In this document: positions 27,873 through 40,733 of the stretch, in pieces
How the letters are laid out: each line of letters begins with the position of its first letter
How positions within the stretch are numbered: position 1 is the first letter of the stretch
Assembly: GCA_902541695.1 (NCBI GenBank)
Contig: CACBRT010000008.1
Location: 1-40,850, forward strand
Direction: 5' to 3'
Source: an uncultured Alphaproteobacteria bacterium
Lineage (GTDB): Bacteria; Pseudomonadota; Alphaproteobacteria; Rhodobacterales; Rhodobacteraceae
Length of the DNA: 40,850 nt
The notes under the pieces: model-generated
What the model saw: the letters and a program-made list of their open reading frames with translations, nothing else
What the model was told of the DNA's origin: nothing
Database searches by the model: none
Position numbers and translations under genes: made by a program

Positions 27873-29132
27873 ATGAATAGAGCTTTAACATTTTTAACAG
27901 AATATTCACTATTATTAATTATAGGTGCATTAATTGCTCTATTTTGGGCAAATATAAATTACGAAAGTTACCATCATTTTGTAGAGTTTCCAATTTGGGA
28001 CGGTGGGTTTATAGGTCACGGTCACTATGATGACGAAGGGCATTATCATCGTACACTTACACTACATTATCTAGTTAATGATTTACTTATGGCTTTTTTC
28101 TTTGCTGTTGCTGGTAAAGAAGTATGGGAAGCTGTGGCACTAAAGTCTGGTCCTTTACGAGGTAAAAAAGCACTGACACCACTTGTAGCAACTTCAGGTG
28201 GTATGTTTGGTCCAATTGCTGTTTATTTAGGATTAGCATATTTCATGGGCTCTGACACCTATACTGCAGTTGCAAATGGTTGGGCAATACCAACTGCAAC
28301 AGATATAGCTTTCTCATATTTAGTAGGTAGAATTATATTTGGGGCAGGTCATCCAGCTGTTCGTTTTCTTTTGTTATTAGCAATTGCAGATGATGCAGCA
28401 GGGTTAATAATTTTAGCAATATTCTATCCATCAGGCGAACTACAACCAATTTTTATATTATACGCTGCAATAGCTGCTTTTTTGGTTTTTATTATTGCAA
28501 ATTGGTTGCCTAGAAAGCTAGATGGAGATGATCCAAAAAATCCAGTATCTTCCATGGTCAGAAAAAAATTCTCATTTTGGCCCTACGCTTTAGGTGGAGT
28601 TATAACTTGGTTGTGTTTCCAAGAATCCGGAATTCATCCTGCACTAGGTTTGCTTTTTATGGTGCCAGCTATTCCACATGCTGAGTCTGATTTTGGTTTT
28701 TTTGCAGAAGAGGAAGAACATGAACATGATTTACTTAATGATATTGAACATGGTTTGAAAATACCAGTAGAGTTTATTTTATTTTTCTTTGGTTTAATGA
28801 ACGCAGGAGTTGCTTTTTCTGCAATTGGGGATGCTACCTGGTTAGTTTTGGCAGGTCTCTTCATTGGAAAACCTTTTGGAATTTTCTTTTTTGGATGGTT
28901 AGCTGCTAAACCACTTAAATTTGGGATGCCAGAAGGTATGACATATGCTGATATTTTTGTTTTAGGTATGGTTGCAGCTATTGGATTCACTGTATCTTTA
29001 TTTGTAGCAACGGTTGCTTTTGAACCAGGCTCTGTTCAAGATGCAGCTAAAATGGGTGCTTTACTAAGCTTTTTCGCAGCTGTTATTTCATTATTACTAG
29101 GCAAATTTTTTAAGATTAAGAAAGTTCAGTAA
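27873..29132 (+). CDS. nhaA: Na+/H+ antiporter NhaA
   Basis: NhaA-family antiporter of 419 residues with about twelve transmembrane segments. The transport-site aspartates are Asp173-Asp174 (LLLLAIADDAAG), and the unwound-helix motif IPTATDIAFS holds Asp144. The cytoplasmic loop with DIEHGLKIPVEFILFFFGLMNAG is conserved. It is about 30 residues longer than the E. coli protein, mainly through a histidine-rich stretch at 49-65 (GHGHYDDEGHYHRTLTLH) in the first periplasmic region and an acidic/His loop (AEEEEHEHDLLND). It exports sodium in exchange for protons, consistent with a marine cell. About 100 AT-rich bases precede it, so it probably has its own promoter. Confidence 0.95.
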   Translation: MNRALTFLTEYSLLLIIGALIALFWANINYESYHHFVEFPIWDGGFIGHGHYDDEGHYHRTLTLHYLVNDLLMAFFFAVAGKEVWEAVALKSGPLRGKKALTPLVATSGGMFGPIAVYLGLAYFMGSDTYTAVANGWAIPTATDIAFSYLVGRIIFGAGHPAVRFLLLLAIADDAAGLIILAIFYPSGELQPIFILYAAIAAFLVFIIANWLPRKLDGDDPKNPVSSMVRKKFSFWPYALGGVITWLCFQESGIHPALGLLFMVPAIPHAESDFGFFAEEEEHEHDLLNDIEHGLKIPVEFILFFFGLMNAGVAFSAIGDATWLVLAGLFIGKPFGIFFFGWLAAKPLKFGMPEGMTYADIFVLGMVAAIGFTVSLFVATVAFEPGSVQDAAKMGALLSFFAAVISLLLGKFFKIKKVQ

Positions 29133-29153
29133 ATAAATAGAATTTAATGAGTG

Positions 29154-29189
29154 GAGCCAGTTTAACAGGGGTACTTGTTTAACTGGCTC
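29154..29189 (+). other. Long hairpin downstream of nhaA
   Basis: GAGCCAGTTTAAC (29154-29166) pairs with GTTTAACTGGCTC (29177-29189), 13 positions with a single T-T mismatch and a 10-base loop. No U-run follows directly, so it is not a standard intrinsic terminator. It lies 22 bases after the nhaA stop codon and could protect or end that transcript, or belong to a separate small RNA. Confidence 0.55.
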
Positions 29190-29410
29190 AAGAGGGTTTA
29201 CGTAACCAGATTTACAATAACCTGGACGGGCTTATTAAGGAGCCAACCTAGATAAATGTTTGCAAAAATTGAGCCAACTTTAAGATGCTTTTAAATTTTC
29301 ACTCAATTCTAAAACTATTTTATAATTTTTTTGGTCTATTTTTTGCATTTATAGATTTGATAAAGAGCTGGAAGATTAAAATACTACTTGCTTCACATCT
29401 CCTATCGATC

Positions 29411-29448
29411 GAGCCAGTGAATAAAACCACTGGCTTACCAAATTTTTT
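29411..29448 (+). terminator. Terminator-like hairpin with T-run
   Basis: AGCCAGTG (29412-29419) pairs perfectly with CACTGGCT (29428-29435) around an 8-base A-rich loop, and a run of six T follows at 29443-29448 after a 7-base gap. The gap makes it a weak terminator on paper. It could close a transcript running through the hairpin-rich stretch that begins at 29154. Confidence 0.45.
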
Positions 29449-29492
29449 ACATTATTATTGAGACTACAAAGTATTTAAAATTCAGGTGTGCT

Positions 29493-29630
29493 ATGAAGAA
29501 ATCTCAACTTCCAACCAAAATATGTGTTGTTTGTGATCGCCCTTTTAATTGGAGAAAAAAATGGTCTAAGGTATGGCAAGAAGTTAAATATTGTTCAAAC
29601 GCGTGCAAAAAAAAAAATAAATTAAAATGA
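29493..29630 (+). CDS. DUF2256 small zinc-ribbon-like protein
   Basis: A 45-residue protein with the unmistakable DUF2256 pattern: PTKICVVCDRPFNWRKKW (7-24) and QEVKYCSNACKKK (29-41), giving Cys11, Cys14, Cys34 and Cys38 as likely zinc ligands, and a very basic tail. The function of the family is unknown; it is widespread in marine bacteria and cyanobacteria and is often missed because of its size. The gene has a clear start (ATG after GGTGTGCT) and stop, and it stands alone between two structured non-coding stretches. Confidence 0.85.
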   Translation: MKKSQLPTKICVVCDRPFNWRKKWSKVWQEVKYCSNACKKKNKLK

Positions 29631-29644
29631 TTAGAAGGTGCGCC

Positions 29645-29662
29645 AAAAAGTCCCCACTTTTT
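29645..29662 (+). other. Hairpin after the DUF2256 gene
   Basis: AAAAAGT (29645-29651) pairs with ACTTTTT (29656-29662) around a CCCC loop, 14 bases after the DUF2256 stop codon. The stem is A/T-rich and its own 3' arm supplies five T, so it may act as a weak terminator on either strand. Confidence 0.45.
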
Positions 29663-29740
29663 CCATTGAAATGAAAAGAAATAAATTATAGTTAAATTTC
29701 ATCTAGTATACACCATGTGTATTACTTCCTCCCTATACCT

Positions 29741-29768
29741 GGGCTACACTATAGTAGCCCTTTTTTTT
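29741..29768 (+). terminator. Strong intrinsic terminator
   Basis: GGGCTAC (29741-29747) pairs perfectly with GTAGCCC (29754-29760) around a 6-base loop, followed at once by eight T (29761-29768). This is the clearest rho-independent terminator in the window. It ends whatever is transcribed through 29493-29740, either the DUF2256 mRNA or a short RNA that includes a further stem-loop at about 29704-29725 (AGTATACAC / GTGTATTACT). Confidence 0.82.
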
Positions 29769-29789
29769 AATTTTTTTTACAACAATAAA

Positions 29790-30548
29790 ATGTATTTTCG
29801 GTTTTTTTCTTATAATAATTCTGTATCAGAAAAAATAGTTGCACTTATTTATGGTTTAATTTGTCATATGACCTTTTTGGTAGCTGGGTCATGTATGTTT
29901 TTAGTTTTATATAATGGTTTTTCAGTATCCTTAGGAACATTTAAATATCCGTATAGTATACTCTCAAACCTGATTTTATTAATTCAATTTCCTATATTGC
30001 ATTCTTTTTTACTATCAACTCCTGGTAGAAAAATACTAAGGTTATTTGCTCCAAATAAATTTTCAAAAACCCTAGAAACAACTATTTATGCTTCAATAGC
30101 ATCTTTTCAATTGATTATTCTTTTTCTTTTCTGGACACCAACAGAAATAACAATTTATTCCATAAATTATCCGTACAGTTTGATTAATACAATTTTGTAT
30201 TGTTTTAGTTGGATACTACTAAGTATTTCATCCATTCAAGCTGGTTATAAGGTCCAAACTGGTTCTTTAGGATGGACATCTATGTACCTGTCAAAAAAAC
30301 CAGAATTTCCTAATTTACCAGTTAAAGGTTTATTTAAATTAACAAGGCAACCAATATACCTTTCATTTTGTCTTATATTATGGACACCACCACTTATGAC
30401 TTTAGATTTATTTATAGTTGCAATTTTTTACAGTATCTATTGTTATACTGCTCCAAGATTTAAAGAAAAAAGATTTAAAAAAATTTATGGTAATTCGTTT
30501 TTAAAGTATAAACAAAACACTCCCTATTTTTTTCCAAGAATATTTTAA
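29790..30548 (+). CDS. Isoprenylcysteine methyltransferase-like membrane protein
   Basis: A 252-residue polytopic membrane protein (about six hydrophobic segments). The C-terminal part, GLFKLTRQPIYLSFCLILW followed by RFKEKRFKKIYGNSFLKYKQNTPYFFP, is the SAM-binding signature of the ICMT/PEMT-type integral membrane methyltransferases (R-x-P-x-Y, then E/K-R-x-x-x-x-x-G-x-x-Y). The substrate is unknown; many bacterial members lack any isoprenylated target. The ATG at 29790 is chosen because the longer in-frame reading from 29715 would begin inside the intrinsic terminator. The transcript must therefore start after 29768, leaving almost no leader, or come from readthrough. Confidence 0.72.
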   Translation: MYFRFFSYNNSVSEKIVALIYGLICHMTFLVAGSCMFLVLYNGFSVSLGTFKYPYSILSNLILLIQFPILHSFLLSTPGRKILRLFAPNKFSKTLETTIYASIASFQLIILFLFWTPTEITIYSINYPYSLINTILYCFSWILLSISSIQAGYKVQTGSLGWTSMYLSKKPEFPNLPVKGLFKLTRQPIYLSFCLILWTPPLMTLDLFIVAIFYSIYCYTAPRFKEKRFKKIYGNSFLKYKQNTPYFFPRIF

Positions 30549-30712
30549 TACTTAAAAATAACATGAAATACCCCTAAACTATTATGTCATAAATAAATAC
30601 CAAAATTTAAAGCATTATTCTGAGTAGTTTAATTTTTATCTCAAATAAACGTTATTAGTAACTATATAAAAAACACAAAAATACTTAATCAATATTAAAG
30701 ATCAATTGTAAT

Positions 30713-31225
30713 TTAGAAGCCTTGTTCTTTTATGCATTCTTCTAATTTGTTTAGAGAGGCTGCAGATCCCATAAGAGAAAAGCTATCTATAATTTTCCTA
30801 TCTTCGTTTAAATGAAAAAGTTCTTGTCCTTCACGAATTTCGCGGATTAACGAATTAAAAGTTTTTTTTGATCCACTATTAAGGTCCATAATTAGCCACC
30901 CAGAATCCAGATAAGGACTTTCACTATACCAACTAGAAAGGTCATCAACAGCAAATTCAAAAATTTTAAGTGTACTATTTACGTCTGAGTCGTCATAATA
31001 AATTGCTAATTCGTCAACTTCAGAATTTACATATATTTGTAATTCTTTATTTCCTTTACCGTTTCGGGCCACACAAGCTGTGCTCCTATTATCATATCTT
31101 AATAAAACTACTTCCCAATCTTTTTGTTTAAAAAGTACCTTTTCATCAAAAATCTCTGATGCAAAAATAAAATTATTAGCATTAAAAAAAATTGGTATTA
31201 AAAATAAGATTTTAAAGAAGTTCAT
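30713..31225 (-). CDS. Secreted protein of unknown function
   Basis: A 170-residue exported protein: signal peptide 1-23 (MNFFKILFLIPIFFNANNFIFA) and a mature domain with two cysteines, one in RSTACVARN and one in LEECIKEQ, which may form a disulfide. The closing pattern SFSLMGSAASLNKLEECI resembles the end of IalB-like and related alphaproteobacterial periplasmic proteins, but this is a weak likeness and I do not assign a family. The gene next to it on the same strand (31282) also encodes a small exported protein with two cysteines, 56 bases upstream, so the two may be co-transcribed. Confidence 0.6.
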   Translation of the reverse strand: MNFFKILFLIPIFFNANNFIFASEIFDEKVLFKQKDWEVVLLRYDNRSTACVARNGKGNKELQIYVNSEVDELAIYYDDSDVNSTLKIFEFAVDDLSSWYSESPYLDSGWLIMDLNSGSKKTFNSLIREIREGQELFHLNEDRKIIDSFSLMGSAASLNKLEECIKEQGF

Positions 31226-31281
31226 CCTATACTCCGTATTAATAAACTTGAGATTTTATGTTCGAGAAATTAAATTATAAC

Positions 31282-31539
31282 TCATTTTTCATCTTTAGTA
31301 CCAGCACAATTTACTATTAAATAATCTGGACGAGGATAACTTTCTATTTTTTTTACTGCAGGAATTAAAAAGCATGCGTGAATTTCTTTCCTATATTGCA
31401 TATAAAAAGTTCCGGAGTCATCCACATGTAATAATTTTCCTTTACCCATTATCTCGGAAGAATATTTAGATGAATAAGTTTCTGAATAAACTGGCGTTTG
31501 TGGGTATATAAACAATAATGCAAGTATAATTTTTTTCAT
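31282..31539 (-). CDS. Small secreted protein of unknown function
   Basis: An 85-residue exported protein with a signal peptide (1-19, KKIILALLFIYPQTPVYS) and a short mature region that includes Cys residues in HACFLIP and IVNCAGT. No family recognised. The signal peptide, stop-to-start spacing and same orientation link it with the secreted protein downstream at 30713. The 279 bases upstream, to the next gene at 31819, are AT-rich and show nothing distinct. Confidence 0.5.
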   Translation of the reverse strand: MKKIILALLFIYPQTPVYSETYSSKYSSEIMGKGKLLHVDDSGTFYMQYRKEIHACFLIPAVKKIESYPRPDYLIVNCAGTKDEK

Positions 31540-31818
31540 TGAATCAACCTGTTTTTTAACAAATATTAGTAATATTTATAACTATCATAAATCTATATTT
31601 AAATTAAAAAAATATATACTTTTTGATTTCGTAAGCTATAGCAATTGTTAATTATAAACAGATACAGAAAATCGTATGATATTTAAATTAATAAATTGTA
31701 GGACCTATAAATTGCGTGTAGTAATTAATTTGCATTAGTTCTTATTTTGATAACAAAAAATTATTTACATAAATCTATATTTTTGTAATCTTAATTCTAA
31801 TAATATTTGTGAATTAAT

Positions 31819-32274
31819 ATGGTACCATTACTTACATTAAATGCTTTAAGTTCTGGATTGGGTCATCTAGGTGTCGCTTTTGAAAATAATCATATCCGAC
31901 ATGTTGATACATACGGAGCCTTAGTTAATGATTGTAAAACAAACATCACGTGTTTTGTTCGATCTTCAGAAAGTAAAGATGTTTTAAATATTCTAAAAAA
32001 ATTTCCTAAAGTAAGTTACTATGTAGGTATGATAAGTCATGAAGCATACAATTTTAAGGGTGTATTTAATGAAGTATTTAATTTAGATACTGATGCTTTA
32101 AGCTTATCAGAGAATTATAGAAATAAATTAATTGATGCTTTATCAAGTGTTGGGTTAGATAGAGAAGCTGTTGAAAATAAATTCAAGGAACCTCCTGATT
32201 TAGGTATTAATTTTATGGTTAATAAAGTTTTTATACAAACTCCAGGACCTGAAGCTGGAAACATTATAGAATAG
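31819..32274 (+). CDS. PPOX-like flavin split-barrel protein (probable)
   Basis: A 151-residue cytosolic protein. The middle, ILKKFPKVSYYVGMISHEAYNFKGVFNEV, has the shape of the split-barrel flavin fold of pyridoxamine-5'-phosphate-oxidase relatives (N-x-x-x-x-P-x-V then T/A-Y-x-x-x-x-x-G), and the tail FIQTPGPEAGN resembles the end of one alphaproteobacterial subgroup. I judge this likely rather than proven. It precedes another PPOX-family gene by 12 bases and a GAF-adenylate cyclase after that, all on the same strand, which suggests a shared signalling role. Flavin, heme or F420 binding is untested. Confidence 0.5.
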   Translation: MVPLLTLNALSSGLGHLGVAFENNHIRHVDTYGALVNDCKTNITCFVRSSESKDVLNILKKFPKVSYYVGMISHEAYNFKGVFNEVFNLDTDALSLSENYRNKLIDALSSVGLDREAVENKFKEPPDLGINFMVNKVFIQTPGPEAGNIIE

Positions 32275-32286
32275 GAATTTTAAAAA

Positions 32287-32670
32287 ATGATAAAAGATAA
32301 TCATTTACCAGCAATGCAAGGAATGTTTCCAAGTTGGATCACAAGCTGTTCTAATGATGGTGAACCTAACACAACAGTTATTTCTCAGATATGGTATGTT
32401 GATGAAAATCACGTGGCTCTGTCTTTCCAATTTTTTAATAAAACTAAAAAAAATATATCAGAAAATCCATTTGCCTATGCCACAATTACTGACCCTTCTA
32501 ACATGAAACAATATAACCTAGAGCTTCAATTTGACCATTCAGAAACAGAGGGTGATTTATTTGATGAGATGGATATGAAGTTACAAGCAATTGCTTCTAT
32601 GACTGGAATGGAAGGCATTTTTGAATTGCAAGCTGCTGATGTATATAAAGTTCTATCGATTAGCAATTAA
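32287..32670 (+). CDS. Pyridoxamine 5'-phosphate oxidase-family FMN-binding protein
   Basis: A 127-residue single-domain split-barrel protein. It shows the family pattern: FPSWITSCSNDGEPNTTVIS (strands 1-2), VDENHVALSFQFFNKTKKNISENPFAYATI (phosphate-contacting K-T-x-x-N and the N-P step) and an LELQFDHSETEGDLFDEM section. Short members like this bind FMN or related cofactors but usually lack PdxH activity. AGGA lies nine bases upstream of the ATG. It sits between a probable relative and the GAF-cyclase gene (60 bases downstream), making a sensor or redox-related function for the group plausible. Confidence 0.75.
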   Translation: MIKDNHLPAMQGMFPSWITSCSNDGEPNTTVISQIWYVDENHVALSFQFFNKTKKNISENPFAYATITDPSNMKQYNLELQFDHSETEGDLFDEMDMKLQAIASMTGMEGIFELQAADVYKVLSISN

Positions 32671-32730
32671 ACTATTTAAAAAAATAATTTTTATTTAAAT
32701 AAGTTTAGTCAAAAGGTAAGAATTGTTTTT

Positions 32731-34233
32731 ATGGATACCCCTATTAAAAAAGAAGATTTCGAAAATTTAAAAAATATCTTGGAAAGAAAAACCAAGGATT
32801 TTGAAATTATTAAGCAGATTTCTTCACAAATCAACAAAACATTAGATGTTAATCTAATTGCTTCAGCCATGTTAAACGCAATGGATGAGTTTTTTGGATT
32901 TAAACACTCAATGATATTACTAATCGATGAAAAAATGGAAAAATTAAATGTATTAGCAACACACGGTTACGAAATTGAAGGTATTGGAGCTAGTGTGAAA
33001 TTAGGTGTTGGTGTAATAGGAATAGTAGCAAAAAAGAAAAAAATGATGAGAATGGCTAACTTAGGAATGCAACGAAGTTATATGAAGGCCATAAAAAATC
33101 AGATAAGCTCTGATGAAAAAAAAAATTTGAGTGATGAGGTCGAATTACCAGGTTTAAAAAACGTTGAAAGTCAGGTTGCTATCCCAATGCTTTTTAATAA
33201 TGACCTAATAGGTGTTTTATCTGTTGAAAGTAAAAAGGTAAATATTTTTGATAATTCTGATGAGCTTTTAATAGGAATTTTAGCCAATCAAACTGCAAAC
33301 GCACTTCAAAATGCAAAACTTTATCAATTAGAACAGAAGAGAAAATTAGAGCTCAATCAAGCACTCTCAAAACTAGCAATACTTAATACCACTCTAGAAA
33401 AAAAAGTTGAAGAAAGAACAAAAGAACTTGTAGAACTTTCAAAAAAATTAGCAAAATATTTTTCACCACAAGTTTATCAATCAATTTTTTCTGGTGAATT
33501 GGATGTAAAAATTCAAACACAAAGAAAGCCATTAACGGTGTTTTTTTCAGATCTTGAAGGATTTACTGAATTAACTGAGAGACTTGAACCTGAAGTTTTA
33601 ACAGAAATTCTCACCCAATATTTAACAGAAATGTCAAAGATAGCTATCAAATGGGGTGGAACAATTGATAAATTTATTGGTGATGCATTACTTGTTTTCT
33701 TTGGTGATCCTAACTCTAATGGAAACAAAAAAGATGCAGTAGCATGTGTTTCTATGGCTATTGAAATGCTTAAAAAGCTAAAAAAATTGAGAAAATTTTG
33801 GAGGGATAAAGGAATTTCCAAACCCTTGAATGCAAGAATTGGTATTCATACAGGAGTTTGTACGGTAGGTAATTTTGGTTCAGAAGACAGATTAGATTAT
33901 ACTATTATTGGAAATGGAGTAAATCTTGCTTCAAGAATTGAGACAAGTGCAGAACCTAATAAAATCTTATTATCAGAAGATACTTATCTTTTGATTAAAG
34001 AAGAAGTAGTTTGTTTAAAAAAACAAAAAATTTCAGTCAAAGGTATATCTTATCCAGTACAAACTTATGAGGTGTTAGGATATGTAGATGAAATCTCTAA
34101 AAATAGTCTTATTATTGAAAAAAGTATTCCGGGTCTTTCTTTATCATTAGATAAATCTGAAATTCAAGATAACCAGACTGCTATAAATTTAATACAAGAC
34201 GCTTTAAAATCTCTCAGATCTAAAAAGAGTTAA
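32731..34233 (+). CDS. GAF-domain class III adenylate cyclase
   Basis: A 500-residue cytosolic signalling enzyme: a GAF domain (about 35-195, with GVGVIGIVAKKKKMMRMAN and SQVAIPMLFNNDLIGVLSVES), a coiled-coil signalling helix (about 200-240), the LAKYFSPQ linker and a cyclase domain (about 265-450). Metal aspartates are Asp274 and Asp318; Lys314 and Thr391 mark ATP specificity; Asn398 and Arg402 complete the site, so it should be active. A GAF ligand cannot be named; the conserved tyrosines or cysteines of known chromophore-binding GAF domains are not evident. It is a paralogue of the cyclase at 5774 and likely the output of the operon with the two flavin-fold proteins. Confidence 0.88.
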   Translation: MDTPIKKEDFENLKNILERKTKDFEIIKQISSQINKTLDVNLIASAMLNAMDEFFGFKHSMILLIDEKMEKLNVLATHGYEIEGIGASVKLGVGVIGIVAKKKKMMRMANLGMQRSYMKAIKNQISSDEKKNLSDEVELPGLKNVESQVAIPMLFNNDLIGVLSVESKKVNIFDNSDELLIGILANQTANALQNAKLYQLEQKRKLELNQALSKLAILNTTLEKKVEERTKELVELSKKLAKYFSPQVYQSIFSGELDVKIQTQRKPLTVFFSDLEGFTELTERLEPEVLTEILTQYLTEMSKIAIKWGGTIDKFIGDALLVFFGDPNSNGNKKDAVACVSMAIEMLKKLKKLRKFWRDKGISKPLNARIGIHTGVCTVGNFGSEDRLDYTIIGNGVNLASRIETSAEPNKILLSEDTYLLIKEEVVCLKKQKISVKGISYPVQTYEVLGYVDEISKNSLIIEKSIPGLSLSLDKSEIQDNQTAINLIQDALKSLRSKKS

Positions 34234-34256
34234 AATTTGATCTAACTTTAATTTAT

Positions 34257-35138
34257 TTAATTACGAGAAAAAAAATTGGACATAAGCTCAGCAATTTCCA
34301 CAGGAATTTCTTCTGCCATATAATGTGAGGTATTGAGAGCTTTACCCTCAACTTTTTTGGCTCGATTACGCCAAAGGCTCATTCCATTAAAACACGTTTC
34401 TATTACTCCTTTTTTTGCCCAAAGCGTAAGTATAGGCATTTCAAGTTTTTTACCAAAATCTTCATTATCATGTTCAATGTCAATGCTAGCAGCAGCACGA
34501 TAGTCTTCACAGCTTGCGTGTATCATGTCTGGATCTGCAAAGGCATTCAAATATTCAGTAAGAGCTTTAGATGAAAATGGGATTTTTTCTTTTGATTGAT
34601 TTATACATTTCTGCATCCAAAACATTTTAGGATCTGCTCCAATTATTTTTTCTGGAAATGGGCTTGGTAAAGTTAGAAAAAACCAATGCCAATATCTAAT
34701 TGCAAATTCTGTGTTGGTGTTAGCATACATTTCACGTGTAGGTGCTATATCGAGTAAGGTCATAGCTTTAACACAATTAGGATGATCTAAGCCCATCCTA
34801 TGTGCAACCCGTGCTCCTCGATCATGAGCTCCAACCAAAAATCTTTCATGTCCTAAACGCCGCATAATTGCTACAATATCATTAGCCATAACGCGTTTTG
34901 AATAAGGCTTATGTAAGGAATCCGAAGCTGGTTTGTCTGATTGTCCATATCCTCGTAAATCTGGACAAATAACTTGATAGGATTGTGCCAATATTGGTGC
35001 CACACCATGCCACATAGCAGATGTTTGTGGATAACCATGAAGGAGTACAATAGATGGTGCATTTCTGGGACCAGCACGTCGAACAAACAAAGTTGCGCCG
35101 TCACCTTCGATTTTTTCACTAATAAAGTTCTCAAACAT
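34257..35138 (-). CDS. Fluoroacetate/haloacetate dehalogenase-like alpha/beta hydrolase
   Basis: A 293-residue alpha/beta hydrolase with the full residue set of the fluoroacetate dehalogenase family: nucleophile Asp106 with Arg107 and Arg110 (HDRGARVAHR), acid Asp130, halide-pocket His151-Trp152 (YWHWFFL) and Tyr213 (EDYRAAA), and base His272 (NTSHYMAEE). The oxyanion HGYPQTS motif is at 34-40. The family hydrolyses haloacetates to glycolate by a covalent ester; an epoxide hydrolase would need a different cap pattern. AAGGAG lies six bases before the ATG. It is less AT-rich than the neighbouring cyclase gene and is divergent from a TRAP transporter of similar composition. Confidence 0.82.
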   Translation of the reverse strand: MFENFISEKIEGDGATLFVRRAGPRNAPSIVLLHGYPQTSAMWHGVAPILAQSYQVICPDLRGYGQSDKPASDSLHKPYSKRVMANDIVAIMRRLGHERFLVGAHDRGARVAHRMGLDHPNCVKAMTLLDIAPTREMYANTNTEFAIRYWHWFFLTLPSPFPEKIIGADPKMFWMQKCINQSKEKIPFSSKALTEYLNAFADPDMIHASCEDYRAAASIDIEHDNEDFGKKLEMPILTLWAKKGVIETCFNGMSLWRNRAKKVEGKALNTSHYMAEEIPVEIAELMSNFFSRN

Positions 35139-35368
35139 TTTATTCTCCTTAAGGATACTATGTTTAATTTTATATTTCAGATTGAAATTAAATATTTAAC
35201 CTTAAAAAATAAACAATTTTACGACTAATTGTTTCATCAACCCCCTGTTTTTTTTGTTGGCACTAGACTCATACCTATATTTGTGAAATCTATTTTATAA
35301 TAATCACTAATAATTTGAATTTTAATTAATTTAAAAACGTTACAAAAAAAAAGAAAAAGGAGTACATA
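35139..35368. promoter_or_regulatory. Shared divergent upstream region of the dehalogenase-like gene and dctP
   Basis: The 230 bases between the two divergent genes must hold both promoters. Each gene has an AAGGAG Shine-Dalgarno six bases before its ATG (35145-35150 on the minus strand and 35356-35362 on the plus strand), stronger than most in the window. TATAAT at about 35294-35299 faces dctP but lacks a well-placed -35 box. A TTGGCAC at 35257 has no matching sigma-54 -12 element. Confidence 0.4.
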
Positions 35369-36361
35369 ATGAAGTTTCTTCTAAAAACAGCACTTTCCCT
35401 TACATTGGCGGTCAGTGCAACAACTGTCTTTGCAGCATGCGACTCAGGTGAAATAAATATCAAATTTAGCCACGTAACTAACACTGACAAACATCCTAAG
35501 GGAATAGCTGCAACACTTTTAAGTGAGCGTGTGAATAAAGAGATGAATGGCAAGGCTTGCATGGAGGTCTTCCCAAATTCAACCCTATATGACGACAACA
35601 AGGTTCTTGAAGCTCTCCTTCAAGGTGACGTTCAGCTAGCAGCACCGTCACTCTCTAAGTTTGAGAAGTTCACTAAACAGTTTCGTATTTTCGACTTACC
35701 TTTCATGTTCGAAAATATTGAAGCAGTAGATGCATTTCAATCTTCAGAATCAGGCCAGAACTTGCTAGACAGCATGCAGCGCCGTGGCCTTCAAGGATTG
35801 ACGTTTTGGCATAATGGAATGAAACAAATGTCTGCGAATGTACCATTGATTTCACCATCAGATGCTAATGGTTTAAAATTTAGAGTTATGTCATCAGATG
35901 TTCTAGTAGCTCAAATGAAAGCAATCGGTGGGGCCCCACAAAAAATGGCATTCTCTGAAGTATATGGTGGCCTTCAGCAAGGTGTTGTAGATGGGCAAGA
36001 AAATACATGGTCTAACATCTATGGTAAGAAATTTTTTGAAGTACAGGATGGTGTTACTGAAACTAACCACGGGATAATTGATTATTTGGTTGTAACAAGT
36101 GTTGATTGGTTAGAAAGTCTTGATACAGATATTCGTGATCAGTTCTTAACAATTTTGAAAGAAGTCACAGAACTGCGAAATGCTGAGTCCTTTGCTGTCA
36201 ATCAGGCGAATAGACAGGCTATTATTGATGCAGGTGGTACTATAAGAACATTAAGTCCAGCAGAGCGTCAAGCTTGGGTTGATGTGATGAAACCAGTATG
36301 GAGTCAATTTTCTGATGATGTTGGTCAGGATATGATTGACGCTGCACAAGCCCTAAATTAG
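35369..36361 (+). CDS. dctP: TRAP transporter substrate-binding protein DctP
   Basis: Periplasmic solute receptor of 330 residues: signal peptide 1-22 (FLLKTALSLTLAVSATTVFA), then the DctP fold with FSHVTNTDKHPKG, the long helix region, and the ligand part LKFRVMSSDVLVAQMKAIGG (carboxylate-clamping Arg) with KMAFSEVYGGLQQGVVDGQENTWSNIYGKKFFEVQ, the hallmark of C4-dicarboxylate-type DctP receptors. The most likely ligands are malate, succinate or fumarate, or a small organic acid; a haloacid link is suggested only by the divergent hydrolase. AAGGAG precedes the ATG. It heads a dctPQM operon. Confidence 0.9.
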   Translation: MKFLLKTALSLTLAVSATTVFAACDSGEINIKFSHVTNTDKHPKGIAATLLSERVNKEMNGKACMEVFPNSTLYDDNKVLEALLQGDVQLAAPSLSKFEKFTKQFRIFDLPFMFENIEAVDAFQSSESGQNLLDSMQRRGLQGLTFWHNGMKQMSANVPLISPSDANGLKFRVMSSDVLVAQMKAIGGAPQKMAFSEVYGGLQQGVVDGQENTWSNIYGKKFFEVQDGVTETNHGIIDYLVVTSVDWLESLDTDIRDQFLTILKEVTELRNAESFAVNQANRQAIIDAGGTIRTLSPAERQAWVDVMKPVWSQFSDDVGQDMIDAAQALN

Positions 36362-36422
36362 GGAAAGTTCAACCTATCTGGAGGTGGATTTGCTACCTCC
36401 AGAAAAGTTTAGAAGGTCCGAT

Positions 36423-37097
36423 ATGGATCACTCAAAATCCTTCATAGACCGAATTGAAGAAATGCTTATTGCAGGTATTCTCGGTCTTATGACATTGATC
36501 ACATTTGCAAATGTCATAACTCGTTATGGTTTCAATAAGAATGTACTTTGGGCATTAGAATTGACTGTATTTCTTTTTGGTTGGCTCGTACTTCTTGGCG
36601 CTTCTTATGCAGTAAAGAAAAGTTCTCACCTAGGTGTTGATATAATAATAAACATTTTGACTCCTAAACCTCGCCGTATTTTGGGGCTTATTTCTGTATT
36701 TGTATGCATCGCGTTCAGTTTATTAATGCTGAAAGGCGCATGGGACTATTGGGCTAATTTTGCTAATCTTCCTGGTACTAAGGGACGTTGGTTTCCCCTA
36801 GGTTTTGAGGAAAAGTATCGCCATAAAGGCTGGTATGAGGTAAACGATATACCACATCCTGCTATATTGGGATGGATGGAAAGTGTATTTAATGAAGGTG
36901 AAGAATATGAGAAAATCCCACGGTTAATTCCTTATTTTGTTTTACCTTTGTCAATGGCATTGATGCTTTTTCGGTTTTTTCAAGCAGCATTAGCTCTCTT
37001 GGTAGGTAAAACAGATCGTTTGATAGCTAACCACGAAGTGGAAAATGAAGTCCAAAAAAAAAGTGACGAATTGCTGGAGAAAAATAGATGGAGGTAG
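36423..37097 (+). CDS. dctQ: TRAP transporter small permease DctQ
   Basis: A 224-residue membrane protein with the four-helix DctQ core: FIDRIEEMLIAGILGLMTLITFANVITRYGF, then WALELTVFLFGWLVLLGASYAVKKSSHLGVDII and the helix ending SLLMLKGAWDYW. A soluble insert of about 50 residues (FANLPGTKGRWFPLGFEEKYRHKG, to about 165) lies before the last helix and is longer than in E. coli-type DctQ. The ATG at 36423 is preferred over an in-frame GTG at 36384 because AGAAGG sits six bases before it. It overlaps dctM by ten bases. Confidence 0.88.
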   Translation: MDHSKSFIDRIEEMLIAGILGLMTLITFANVITRYGFNKNVLWALELTVFLFGWLVLLGASYAVKKSSHLGVDIIINILTPKPRRILGLISVFVCIAFSLLMLKGAWDYWANFANLPGTKGRWFPLGFEEKYRHKGWYEVNDIPHPAILGWMESVFNEGEEYEKIPRLIPYFVLPLSMALMLFRFFQAALALLVGKTDRLIANHEVENEVQKKSDELLEKNRWR

Positions 37098-38494
37098 CAC
37101 TACTCTTTTTCCTGGTGATTGGCTTGCTTATTATCGGAGTGCCAATAGCAATATCTCTTGGTATGTCCTCAGTTCTTTTTTTATTAGTATTTTCCGACAG
37201 TTCATTGGCGTCTATTGCCCAAACACTTTTCAGTGCTTTTGAAGGACATTATACCTTACTTGCTATTCCATTTTTTATTCTAGCATCAGCGTTTATGACT
37301 ACTGGTGGGGTTGCAAAAAGGATCATAAGATTTTCAATTGCATGCGTAGGTCACTTGCCAGGAGGCTTGGCAATTGCTGGAGTTTTTGCGTGTATGTTAT
37401 TTGCTGCACTTTCAGGTTCATCACCAGCAACAGTGGTTGCTATAGGTACAATAGTCATTGGAGGTATGGTTCAGGTTGGATATTCAAAAGAATTCGCTGC
37501 AGGCATTATATGTAATGCAGGTACGTTAGGGATCCTAATTCCTCCATCTATAGTGATGGTTGTATATGCAGCTTCAGTTGAAGTTTCAGTTGGAAGGATG
37601 TTCCTTGCTGGTGTAATTCCGGGACTTCTTGCTGGTTTTATGCTAATGACAACCATTTATATAGTAGCTAAGATCAAAAACCTTCCCAAGGAAAAGTGGA
37701 AAGGTTGGAGAGAAATTTTAGTTTCAGGTCGTGAAGCAGGTTGGGGTCTTTTTCTAATAGTTATTATTCTTGGGGGTATTTATGGTGGTATATTTACGCC
37801 TACAGAGGCAGCAGCAGTTGCTGCAGTCTATGCTTTCTTCATAGCTAATTTTATATATAAGGATATGGGACCACTATCTGAGAACTACAACCTGCAACTT
37901 TCAGATACATTTGTTGAGGAACCAAGTAAAAAATCTTTTTTTCTAAAACCTTGGACGCTGGTGACGGCATTCTTTCATCAAGATACAAAAAAAACATTAT
38001 TGGATGCTGGTAAGCTTACGGTAACACTTTTATTTATAATAGCAAACGCTCTCATTCTTAAGCATGTACTGACAAATGAACAAGTTCCACAGCAAGTTGC
38101 AAGCGCAATGTTATCAGCAGGCTTTGGACCAATCATGTTTCTAGTTATAGTTAACGTCATCCTACTTATTGGTGGACAGTTTATGGAGCCTTCGGGTTTA
38201 CTCGTTATTGTTGCACCGTTAGTTTTTCCAATCGCTATAGAATTGGGAATCGACCCAATTCATTTAGGTATTATTATGGTCGTGAATATGGAAATTGGAA
38301 TGATTACTCCACCTGTTGGTTTGAATCTTTTTGTAACCTCTGGTGTTGCTGGAATGCCTATATTGTCAGTGGTGAGAGCGGCCCTACCATTTCTATGTGT
38401 ATTATTTATTTTTTTAATTCTAGTGACATATGTGCCATGGATTTCGACATTCCTCCCAAATATGATCATGGGGCCAGAAATAATTCTAAAATAG
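37088..38494 (+). CDS. dctM: TRAP transporter large permease DctM
   Basis: A 468-residue permease, about 40 longer than the usual DctM, with 12 or more transmembrane segments. Family motifs include ALSGSSPATVVAIGTIVIGGM, FAAGIICNAGTLGILIPPSIVMVVYA, GVFTPTEAAAVAAVYAF-type (here GIFTPTEAAAVAAVYAF) and IGMITPPVGLNLFVTSGVAGM near the C-terminus. The extra length is a hydrophilic stretch around 255-300 (KDMGPLSENYNLQLSD and following) between helices. Its ATG lies inside the end of dctQ, preceded by GGAG, so the two are translationally coupled. It completes the Na+-driven TRAP system. Confidence 0.92.
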   Translation: MEVALLFFLVIGLLIIGVPIAISLGMSSVLFLLVFSDSSLASIAQTLFSAFEGHYTLLAIPFFILASAFMTTGGVAKRIIRFSIACVGHLPGGLAIAGVFACMLFAALSGSSPATVVAIGTIVIGGMVQVGYSKEFAAGIICNAGTLGILIPPSIVMVVYAASVEVSVGRMFLAGVIPGLLAGFMLMTTIYIVAKIKNLPKEKWKGWREILVSGREAGWGLFLIVIILGGIYGGIFTPTEAAAVAAVYAFFIANFIYKDMGPLSENYNLQLSDTFVEEPSKKSFFLKPWTLVTAFFHQDTKKTLLDAGKLTVTLLFIIANALILKHVLTNEQVPQQVASAMLSAGFGPIMFLVIVNVILLIGGQFMEPSGLLVIVAPLVFPIAIELGIDPIHLGIIMVVNMEIGMITPPVGLNLFVTSGVAGMPILSVVRAALPFLCVLFIFLILVTYVPWISTFLPNMIMGPEIILK

Positions 38495-38650
38495 GCACAT
38501 TTTATGTTTACTAGAAACTTAATCTAATCTTAAAAAAATTGAGAGAAATGCAATTTATTGTAACCGATTAAATACGTTATTTTTTAATTAATGACTATTG
38601 TTACTATCAGAGATTGTTAAGAAAAAATTAAGATAAAGAAAGGATTTAGA

Positions 38651-39412
38651 TTAAATAAACGCTTTTCTAATGAGATTAATTGAAGCAATTAAAATCATAA
38701 TTAAAGTAATAATTTTAAAAGTAGTATGGTTGATTTTATTTCTAATTATTGAACCAATGAATAAACCAATGATACATAAAGGAACTAGTGCCAAAGATAA
38801 AGAAACTATATATAAGTTCAAAATACCTGAATATAAATGACCAATAAGTAATAAAACGCTTCCAAAACTATACATTATACCTTGAACTTTAATTTGTTCG
38901 TTTTTTTCAATTTTTAATGATGTTAAATATGATACAGTTAATGGCCCCCATATTCCTGAAATCCCGCCTAAAAAACCATTTATTGACCCTATAATAATTG
39001 TCAAAAAATTATTTTTTGTTAATTTTAATTCATATCCCAAAATTTGTGAAAATGTATAAACAAAAAGTACTATTCCTATAAACCCCATTATTAATTCAGT
39101 GGCTAATATTACATATATTTGACTGCTTATAACCAAAAAAAAACTAGAGAAAAATAAGTAAATTTTATAATTACTAATTGTTCTATAAAAACTAGATTTG
39201 CTTGTAGTGAATGATTGTATGAGATTAGTAAAAATAGTTGGTAATATTAAACTTGCTAAAGCTTGTTCGATTGATATTAAAATACTCAACCCACTTATTA
39301 AAATCATTGGTAAAGCAAAACCAACAATTCCTTTAACAATTCCAGCAATCAAGCCTATTGAAAATATTATTATTAATGTAGTAGGGTCGTTTATCAGAAG
39401 ATAAGTAAACAT
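38651..39412 (-). CDS. TauE/SafE-family membrane permease
   Basis: A 253-residue polytopic membrane protein with about eight hydrophobic segments. The family's duplicated motif is seen: IGLIAGIVKGIVGFALPMIL in the first half and IIGSINGFLGGISGIWGPLTVSYL in the second. Members export or import sulfite, sulfoacetate and other small organosulfur or organic anions; the substrate here is unknown. The ATG at 39412 was chosen over an in-frame TTG at 39475 because the homologous part starts there; neither has a good Shine-Dalgarno. It is more AT-rich than the TRAP genes and so does not seem part of that cassette. Confidence 0.82.
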   Translation of the reverse strand: MFTYLLINDPTTLIIIFSIGLIAGIVKGIVGFALPMILISGLSILISIEQALASLILPTIFTNLIQSFTTSKSSFYRTISNYKIYLFFSSFFLVISSQIYVILATELIMGFIGIVLFVYTFSQILGYELKLTKNNFLTIIIGSINGFLGGISGIWGPLTVSYLTSLKIEKNEQIKVQGIMYSFGSVLLLIGHLYSGILNLYIVSLSLALVPLCIIGLFIGSIIRNKINHTTFKIITLIMILIASINLIRKAFI

Positions 39413-39668
39413 TTTAAAAATATTTAATAAATCATAATTACTAAAAACCTTTACATGATTTATTTTTCTATTCAATATTTATGATTATAATTAATAACAA
39501 AGTAGCAAAACAATAAAACTTATTAGTTCTTCAAAAACTTTAGTTTTAGGGTATTTACCTTTAAAGTGTTTATATCTTTATAAATATAATATAATTCTAA
39601 CACAATTCTATCTTTAAGAAAATTATATATTTAAATAGCTAAATAGACTTTTATGTAATGTATTTATT

Positions 39669-39697
39669 TGGCTGGAGTGGTAGGTTTCGAACCTATC
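39669..39697 (-). other. tRNA 3'-end fragment, probably tRNA-Gln (candidate attachment-site remnant)
   Basis: On the minus strand the 29 bases read GATAGGTTCGAAACCTACC ACTCCAGCCA: a T arm with the loop TTCGAAA and four of five stem pairs, then a 7-base 3' acceptor strand (CACTCCA), discriminator G and CCA. An A72-G73 end implies U1 in the acceptor stem, which points to tRNA-Gln. No anticodon or D arm lies upstream, so it is not a working gene. Such 3' tails are left where integrative elements enter tRNA genes. Confidence 0.6.
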
Positions 39698-39748
39698 TTA
39701 AACAAAACCAAAAAATGATATAAACCACTATCATGTTTCTCATGTCTT

Positions 39749-39788
39749 TCAAAATGAGGAATTTATATTATCACCTTTCTCATTTTGA
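39749..39788. repeat. 10-base inverted repeat beside the tRNA fragment
   Basis: TCAAAATGAG (39749-39758) and CTCATTTTGA (39779-39788) are perfect inverted copies separated by 20 bases, between the tRNA fragment and the recombinase pseudogene. They could be an integrase arm site or a degraded terminator; in this AT-rich stretch chance is possible. Confidence 0.4.
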
Positions 39789-39833
39789 TTTATATTCTCA
39801 GTAATTTCTATATTGTTTTTGTTTTTTTCATAG

Positions 39834-40025
39834 TCATTTTAAGTCTATTGAAACATTTTGTAGTTTTCTTTTACTTTCTAATTTAAGTGGGTTTTTAATA
39901 TCTTAAGTTACAGCTGCTAAACTATGATCCAATCTTTCACTTATAGTTAATATGTCAAAATCTGAATCAAATAAATCAGTTGCTTAAGTATGAGTAATTG
40001 TATTATAACTTATATGCTTAAGTGA
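39834..40025 (-). pseudogene. Decayed tyrosine recombinase (integrase) C-terminus
   Basis: One frame reads ISYNTITHT-stop-ATDLFDSDFDILTISERLDHS, then LAAVT-stop-DIKNPLKLESKRKLQNVSIDL and a final stop. This aligns by eye with the active-site region of tyrosine recombinases (YHDLRHTHAT ... TISERLGHSS-AVTLDIY). The Box II arginine has become Thr, the HTH histidine and a Leu codon have become TAA, and the ERLGH glycine is Asp, so it is inactive. The upstream catalytic part is not recognisable. It runs toward the tRNA fragment 137 bases away, the usual arrangement at the end of an integrated element. Confidence 0.72.
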
Positions 40026-40205
40026 CGACTACTTCTTTATAATAAGATATCTTTTTTATATAACTTTTGTTTGGTAGTCTAAAATTATCAGATAAAATGT
40101 TTGTACTTTATCAAAATTTGTAAATAAAAGTTAATAAATTTCTTATAGACCCATAAATAGGGTTAATACTTTTAAAAAAAAGAAACAAAGCTTTAATAAA
40201 ATTTA

Positions 40206-40733
40206 TTATTTAGATGATAATCGTAAAGAAAAATTAGCTTTCCAATCTCCAATTTCCAATCTGGTTTGCAGTTTCTCATCAAGTGGTTTGAAATTATGTT
40301 TGGATTTTTTTGAAATGTTAATGAATTCCCCATTTTTAAAATCTACTTGTAAGTCGTCACCATCTTCAACTAATTCTGTAACTCCAGGGCAATTAGGTAA
40401 AAAAGGTAAACCTGCATTAATTGCATTTCTAAAACTTCCACGTGGAATTGACTCAACTACTAATCCAAGTTTTTTACCAACTATACCTAGAAAACCTTGT
40501 ATATGTGGGTTTCCTTGTGCAAATCTTTTTCCGGCTACTATAATATCACCAGGTCTAACTTTATTATGAAAATCTTTATCAATACCAGACATTAAATAAT
40601 TCTTTAAAATTTCGGGATTTAATTCTCTTTCTATAGCAAATCTTAGTGGCATTATATCTCCGTCAATTCCTAAATTATTGCCAAACTTCCAACATTTCCC
40701 TGAATATTTCCACTTGAATTGCATTTCAAACAT
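40206..40733 (-). CDS. Aconitase-superfamily small subunit (LeuD/DmdB-like), atypical substrate loop
   Basis: A 175-residue swivel-domain protein of the kind that forms the small subunit of isopropylmalate-type hydro-lyases. It has GNNLGIDGDIMPLRF in place of the usual GDNIDTDxIIP start, VRPGDIIVAGKRFAQG, ESIPRGSFRNAINAGLPFLPN (the family's FRNAxNxGL) and GDDLQVDFKNGEF. The loop that normally reads CGSSREHA, whose Ser and Arg bind the substrate carboxylate, is GNPHIQGF here. The substrate is therefore probably not isopropylmalate. It begins two bases after the large-subunit stop codon. Confidence 0.72.
   Translation of the reverse strand: MFEMQFKWKYSGKCWKFGNNLGIDGDIMPLRFAIERELNPEILKNYLMSGIDKDFHNKVRPGDIIVAGKRFAQGNPHIQGFLGIVGKKLGLVVESIPRGSFRNAINAGLPFLPNCPGVTELVEDGDDLQVDFKNGEFINISKKSKHNFKPLDEKLQTRLEIGDWKANFSLRLSSK

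Follow-up and report, generated by a model that had tools for sequence, protein, structure and literature searches.

Close to the right-hand end of the window (the whole 40,850-nucleotide stretch of DNA analysed here), the remnant of a tyrosine recombinase gene is followed, about 120 bp beyond its 3′ end and on the same strand, by the 3′ half of a tRNA-Gln(TTG) gene. The features surrounding this pair are collected in Table 1, together with the corresponding features of three congeners.

Table 1. Features at the tRNA-Gln locus of the window and at matching loci in congeners
Feature	Position	Strand	Basis
TauE/SafE-family permease, chromosomal side, last gene of the block shared with G001, G002 and G011	38651-39475	-	synteny
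Very AT-rich stretch (17% GC), from tRNA half to synteny breakpoint	39482-39668	.	synteny, composition
tRNA-Gln(TTG) 3′ half, displaced fragment, attR-like end	39669-39714	-	similarity to G010 tRNA-Gln
Spacer separating relic and tRNA half, probably an old attP arm	39715-39833	-	spacer alignment
C-terminal tyrosine recombinase relic	39834-40028	-	profile, PHROGs, alignments with relatives, translation
LeuD/DmdB-like small subunit, probable island cargo	40206-40733	-	profile scores, congener search
LeuC-like large subunit, 3′ end, cut by contig end	40734-40850	-	family assigned by eye
G010:C1 relic	135653-135841		
G010:C1 tRNA-Gln 3′ half	136010-136057		
G006:C8 relic	308693-308580		
G006:C8 tRNA-Gln 3′ half	308396-308352		
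G004:C8 relic	45427-45239		
G004:C8 tRNA-Gln 3′ half	45046-45001		

The minus-strand translation of the relic (40028-39834) reads SSLKHISYNTITHT, stop, ATDLFDSDFDILTISERLDHSLAAVT, stop, DIKNPLKLESKRKLQNVSIDLK, and then TGA. Its frame starts with SSLK (40028), ends with IDLK (39837) and is closed by the TGA at 39836-39834; the preliminary description had placed an integrase pseudogene exactly here (39834-40025, minus strand), and its two in-frame TAA codons are located at 39986-39984 and 39905-39903. About 60 residues are left, corresponding to the C-terminal quarter of a tyrosine recombinase gene. The other three quarters are gone, and the 180 bp between the relic and the LeuD-like gene showed no N-terminal integrase part. 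The motifs R-H-T-H-A-T, ERLGHS and AVTLDIY previously read in this frame are recognisable, but only in the degraded forms T-H-T-stop-A-T, ERLDHS and AVT-stop-DIK. In the HxxR box, L-R-H-T-H-A has become I-T-H-T-stop-A and aligns as NxxT, with the His replaced by Asn and the catalytic Arg by Thr, which confirms the loss of the arginine. The Tyr position aligns to Lys (DIY to DIK), a 1-base gap follows directly after DIK in the DNA alignment with relatives, and the nucleophile has probably been lost too. The catalytic set R-H-x-x-R-H-Y is not found in the relic, the region of the N-terminal Arg being missing altogether. Judged by its sequence, this is a dead tyrosine recombinase fragment, a pseudogene rather than a working member.

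Comparisons with relatives bear out that the fragment is an integrase fossil. With a genus profile built from five congener integrase C-termini, the window's own relic being left out, the relic scored 34.3 bits (E 4.8e-10) in a six-frame translation of the whole window, the best of 20 shuffled windows reaching 10.2 bits and the reversed window 5.7 bits. Pairwise, its peptide scored 103 with the G004 relic (shuffled maximum 42) and 87 with that of G010 (shuffled maximum 39), and it matched the PHROGs integrase families phrog_7685 (E 0.0018) and phrog_1 (E 0.029). The preliminary description had looked to a Phage_integrase profile search allowing for stops. In Pfam, the full-length peptide with its stops written as X gave no integrase match and the trimmed peptide matched Phage_integrase (PF00589) at E 0.092 only, so that Pfam alone would not decide the identity; similarity to the C-terminal catalytic domain of this family comes from the genus profile and phrog_7685. 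The best Pfam match of the relic, MBTP1_N (E 0.011), fell below the cut-off and was taken as chance. A DNA search with 39476-40205 against 41 genomes returned only AT-rich matches of 23-64 bases. The G010 relic matches integrases in 924 phage records, with up to about 55% identity; integrases of viral contigs reach 50% identity to it and are thus too distant to name a parent.

The tRNA half (39714-39669, minus strand; TTTTTGG...AGGTTCGAAACCTACCACTCCAGCCA) comprises 46 bases equivalent to positions 30-75 of tRNA-Gln, from the anticodon loop through the CCA. It is identical to the tRNA-Gln of G010 at 38 of the 46 bases (83%; E 4e-9 within the window) and was found once in the window's own genome. 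ARAGORN left it undetected in the window, where Rfam gave sub-threshold matches only. The tyrosine integrases of tRNA islands act at an attP that carries part of the tRNA sequence in a second copy. On integration the tRNA is restored, and the original fragment, now displaced, marks the end of the island (PMC4383910). All that is seen in the window agrees with this scheme. Extending over 46 bases to the tRNA end, the half is the type of displaced fragment that integration in the anticodon loop leaves behind. Part of the spacer separating it from the relic aligns with the G006 spacer, with a score reached by none of 500 shuffles; homology with the G004 spacer was not significant. Viral contigs contained no exact copy of the tRNA-Gln 3′ half, so that the search revealed no free phage using this attachment site.

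The same arrangement recurs in three congeners (G010, G006 and G004): with order and orientation unchanged, a tRNA-Gln 3′ half comes about 170-195 bp after an integrase C-terminal relic. Two of them have an intact tRNA-Gln at the other end, upstream of the half and facing the same way. The distance is 1.9 kb in G010, where 48 bases are repeated identically, and 15 kb in G006, where the identical repeat comprises 45 bases. The G006 interval contains a set of metabolic genes, a further LeuC/LeuD-like pair among them. In G004, 1.6 kb separate the half from the intact tRNA-Gln, but the latter is inverted, suggesting either rearrangement or faulty assembly. Empty sites are present at the genus level, at the congeners' sites. 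The intact tRNA-Gln of G003 directly adjoins the nhaA flank, which follows the half in G006 and G004 and is alignable with G003 over about 500 bases, and G007 is the empty-site partner of G010. By these comparisons, the tRNA-Gln target has been used repeatedly in the genus, in at least three related marine bacteria besides the window. With its 38 matching bases, the window's half is more decayed than the halves of G010 and G006; relic and half being both decayed, the integration can be called old, as had been proposed, in relative terms only.

Other broken tRNA genes were observed in these genomes. Orphan tRNA-Gln 5′ halves broken at the anticodon loop occur at G000:C22 10792-10824 (L114), G009:C22 20862-20902 (L111), G010:C3 26290-26323 (L112) and G004:C19 3122-3089 (L113). 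Those of G009, G010 and G004 retain a promoter-like upstream flank, and an integrase C-terminal relic faces the break at L113; the split is old, since the G000 and G010 copies have a common downstream gene (92% identical). Five congeners carry integrase C-terminal relics or a broken integrase about 130-265 bp before an intact tRNA. These mirror arrangements (L132, L133, L134 and L138 at tRNA-Leu TAA, L142 at tRNA-Ser TGA) give the impression that the tRNA's 5′ side was restored by an element. The tRNA-Pro(TGG)-like 3′ halves cut at the anticodon loop (G006:C2 62364-62409 and 53410-53450, G010:C3 61526-61560, G011:C3 85842-85819) are probably further island ends. A candidate island of very small size is seen at G007:C3 88129-88617 (L147): a 266-aa integrase frame is flanked by an intact tRNA-Gly on one side and, facing the same way, a tRNA-Gly 3′ half on the other, with some 1.7 kb separating the two tRNA sequences.

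Because the displaced half of the window keeps the chromosomal 3′ flank, the island is placed to the right of 39714, with the relic and the LeuD-like gene inside it. From the half it would extend beyond the LeuD-like gene and past the end of the contig; the window contains 1.1 kb of it, with one end only, and in this 1.1 kb no gene for a phage structural protein was seen beside the relic. The island edge suspected earlier is upheld by the half, by the three similar congeners and by the empty sites, and is now drawn more sharply, at 39669-39714 with the island toward higher coordinates. The window's own pair of ends cannot be shown, because its 70%-complete genome assembly holds no intact tRNA-Gln and the contig stops at 40850. 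The LeuD-like/LeuC-like pair, the atypical hydro-lyase pair of the preliminary description, is plausibly island cargo, the LeuD-like gene having no close homologue in 11 congeners, but the other island end is off the contig. The LeuD-like protein belongs to the LeuD/DmdB group, scores below the cut-off in the LeuD/DmdB and homoaconitase models and has no Pfam match at E 0.01. It reads GNPHIQG in place of the usual GSSRE-type motif. A profile search with the LeuC-like fragment of 37 residues gave no match.

On the chromosomal side, a block of TRAP transporter, hydrolase and TauE permease is kept in G001, G002 and G011, and synteny with these genomes ends at about 39481/39482. There a GMC oxidoreductase continues the block instead, and no intact tRNA-Gln was found in these incomplete assemblies, which together point to an additional rearrangement that probably took place at this spot in the window's lineage. 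The 10 kb to the left of the half (29132-39669) was also considered as an island and dropped, its genes being syntenic blocks in congeners.

We consider it very probable that a tyrosine-integrase element recombined into the anticodon loop of tRNA-Gln(TTG), and that the relic, the half and the right-hand island are its remains. An element with a phage-type tyrosine integrase would have entered the loop, its own copy of the 3′ half rebuilding the tRNA gene at one end while the original 3′ half was pushed to the other, beside the 3′ end of the integrase gene. Most of the integrase would have been deleted later and the remainder would have gained stops and active-site changes, with which the element could no longer leave by its own enzyme. 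Relic and half would then stem from one event, and the intact mate tRNA-Gln would lie beyond the contig end. A later rearrangement must also be assumed, since the window's half adjoins a block found elsewhere in relatives and not the nhaA site of the congeners. As such, the locus is one end of a tRNA-integrated genomic island, a further example of a well-known kind.

Tandem islands are common at hot spots, and integrase relics and tRNA halves are numerous in the genus; the two could accordingly be leftovers of two elements that hit the same tRNA in turn. The recurrence of their pairing, spacing and orientation in three congeners and the alignment of the window spacer with that of G006 make this unlikely. 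A more general conjecture is that these streamlined marine bacteria retain integrase 3′ ends and attachment arms at tRNA genes to serve as landing pads, and that cargo islands with no active integrase of their own replace one another there by homologous recombination; we regard it as quite improbable. It is very improbable that the junction is a chimera of assembly or amplification and that the relic, the half and the neighbouring blocks lie apart in the cell. Single-cell and metagenome assemblies are indeed among the related genomes, synteny stops nearby, and the inverted tRNA-Gln of G004 is a possible product of amplification chimeras, but relic and half are so close together and both decayed, and three independent genomes show their pairing, in one case on a contig of 331 kb. 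That the small frame is retained because its product works, perhaps as a DNA-binding or recombination-directionality peptide, is hardly credible: C-terminal-only fragments recur in the genus, a few without stops (89 aa in G004, 117 aa in G003:C80), but the window's frame has its two stops and has lost its active-site residues, the G006 and G010 relics likewise carry stops, and the Pfam search detects C-terminal-only fragments most easily. As the search model favours this part of the protein, such relics were not taken as proof of a special mechanism.

The preferred reading, integration into the tRNA-Gln anticodon loop, can be set beside known systems. Among 3919 mapped islands, 2083 use anticodon-loop sites and 3760 have 3′ fragments (PMC4383910). 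Like islands of this Islander class (anticodon-loop site A, 3′ fragment type), the window has an anticodon-cut tRNA fragment with an adjoining integrase, and its congeners show the intact tRNA, the fragment and the empty site; unlike them, its integrase is a relic only and a single end is seen (PMC4383910). The Islander pipeline, which requires that the tRNA be intact and that the interval contain an integrase reading frame, would probably not list the window. Rhodobacteraceae prophages in tRNA genes, tRNA-Gln included, have already been reported (PMC8224337). The kind of target is the same and the host family is apparently shared, whereas the window's relic has no adjoining phage structural gene in the part of the island that is read. 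Only a general likeness, read from the same 1.1 kb, exists with tycheposons, which are described as cargo islands of aquatic plankton that are bounded by tRNAs and carry tyrosine recombinases (PMC10872708).

As a single case, this locus leaves general ideas unchanged, and it is a modest addition to a known kind, in which the same tRNA was hit repeatedly within a genus. Integration targeted to tRNA genes extends to this marine genus with its small, AT-rich genomes, where it leaves readable scars. The combination of an integrase tail and a tRNA half is a marker for islands with dead integrases, which are passed over by gene finders and island finders.
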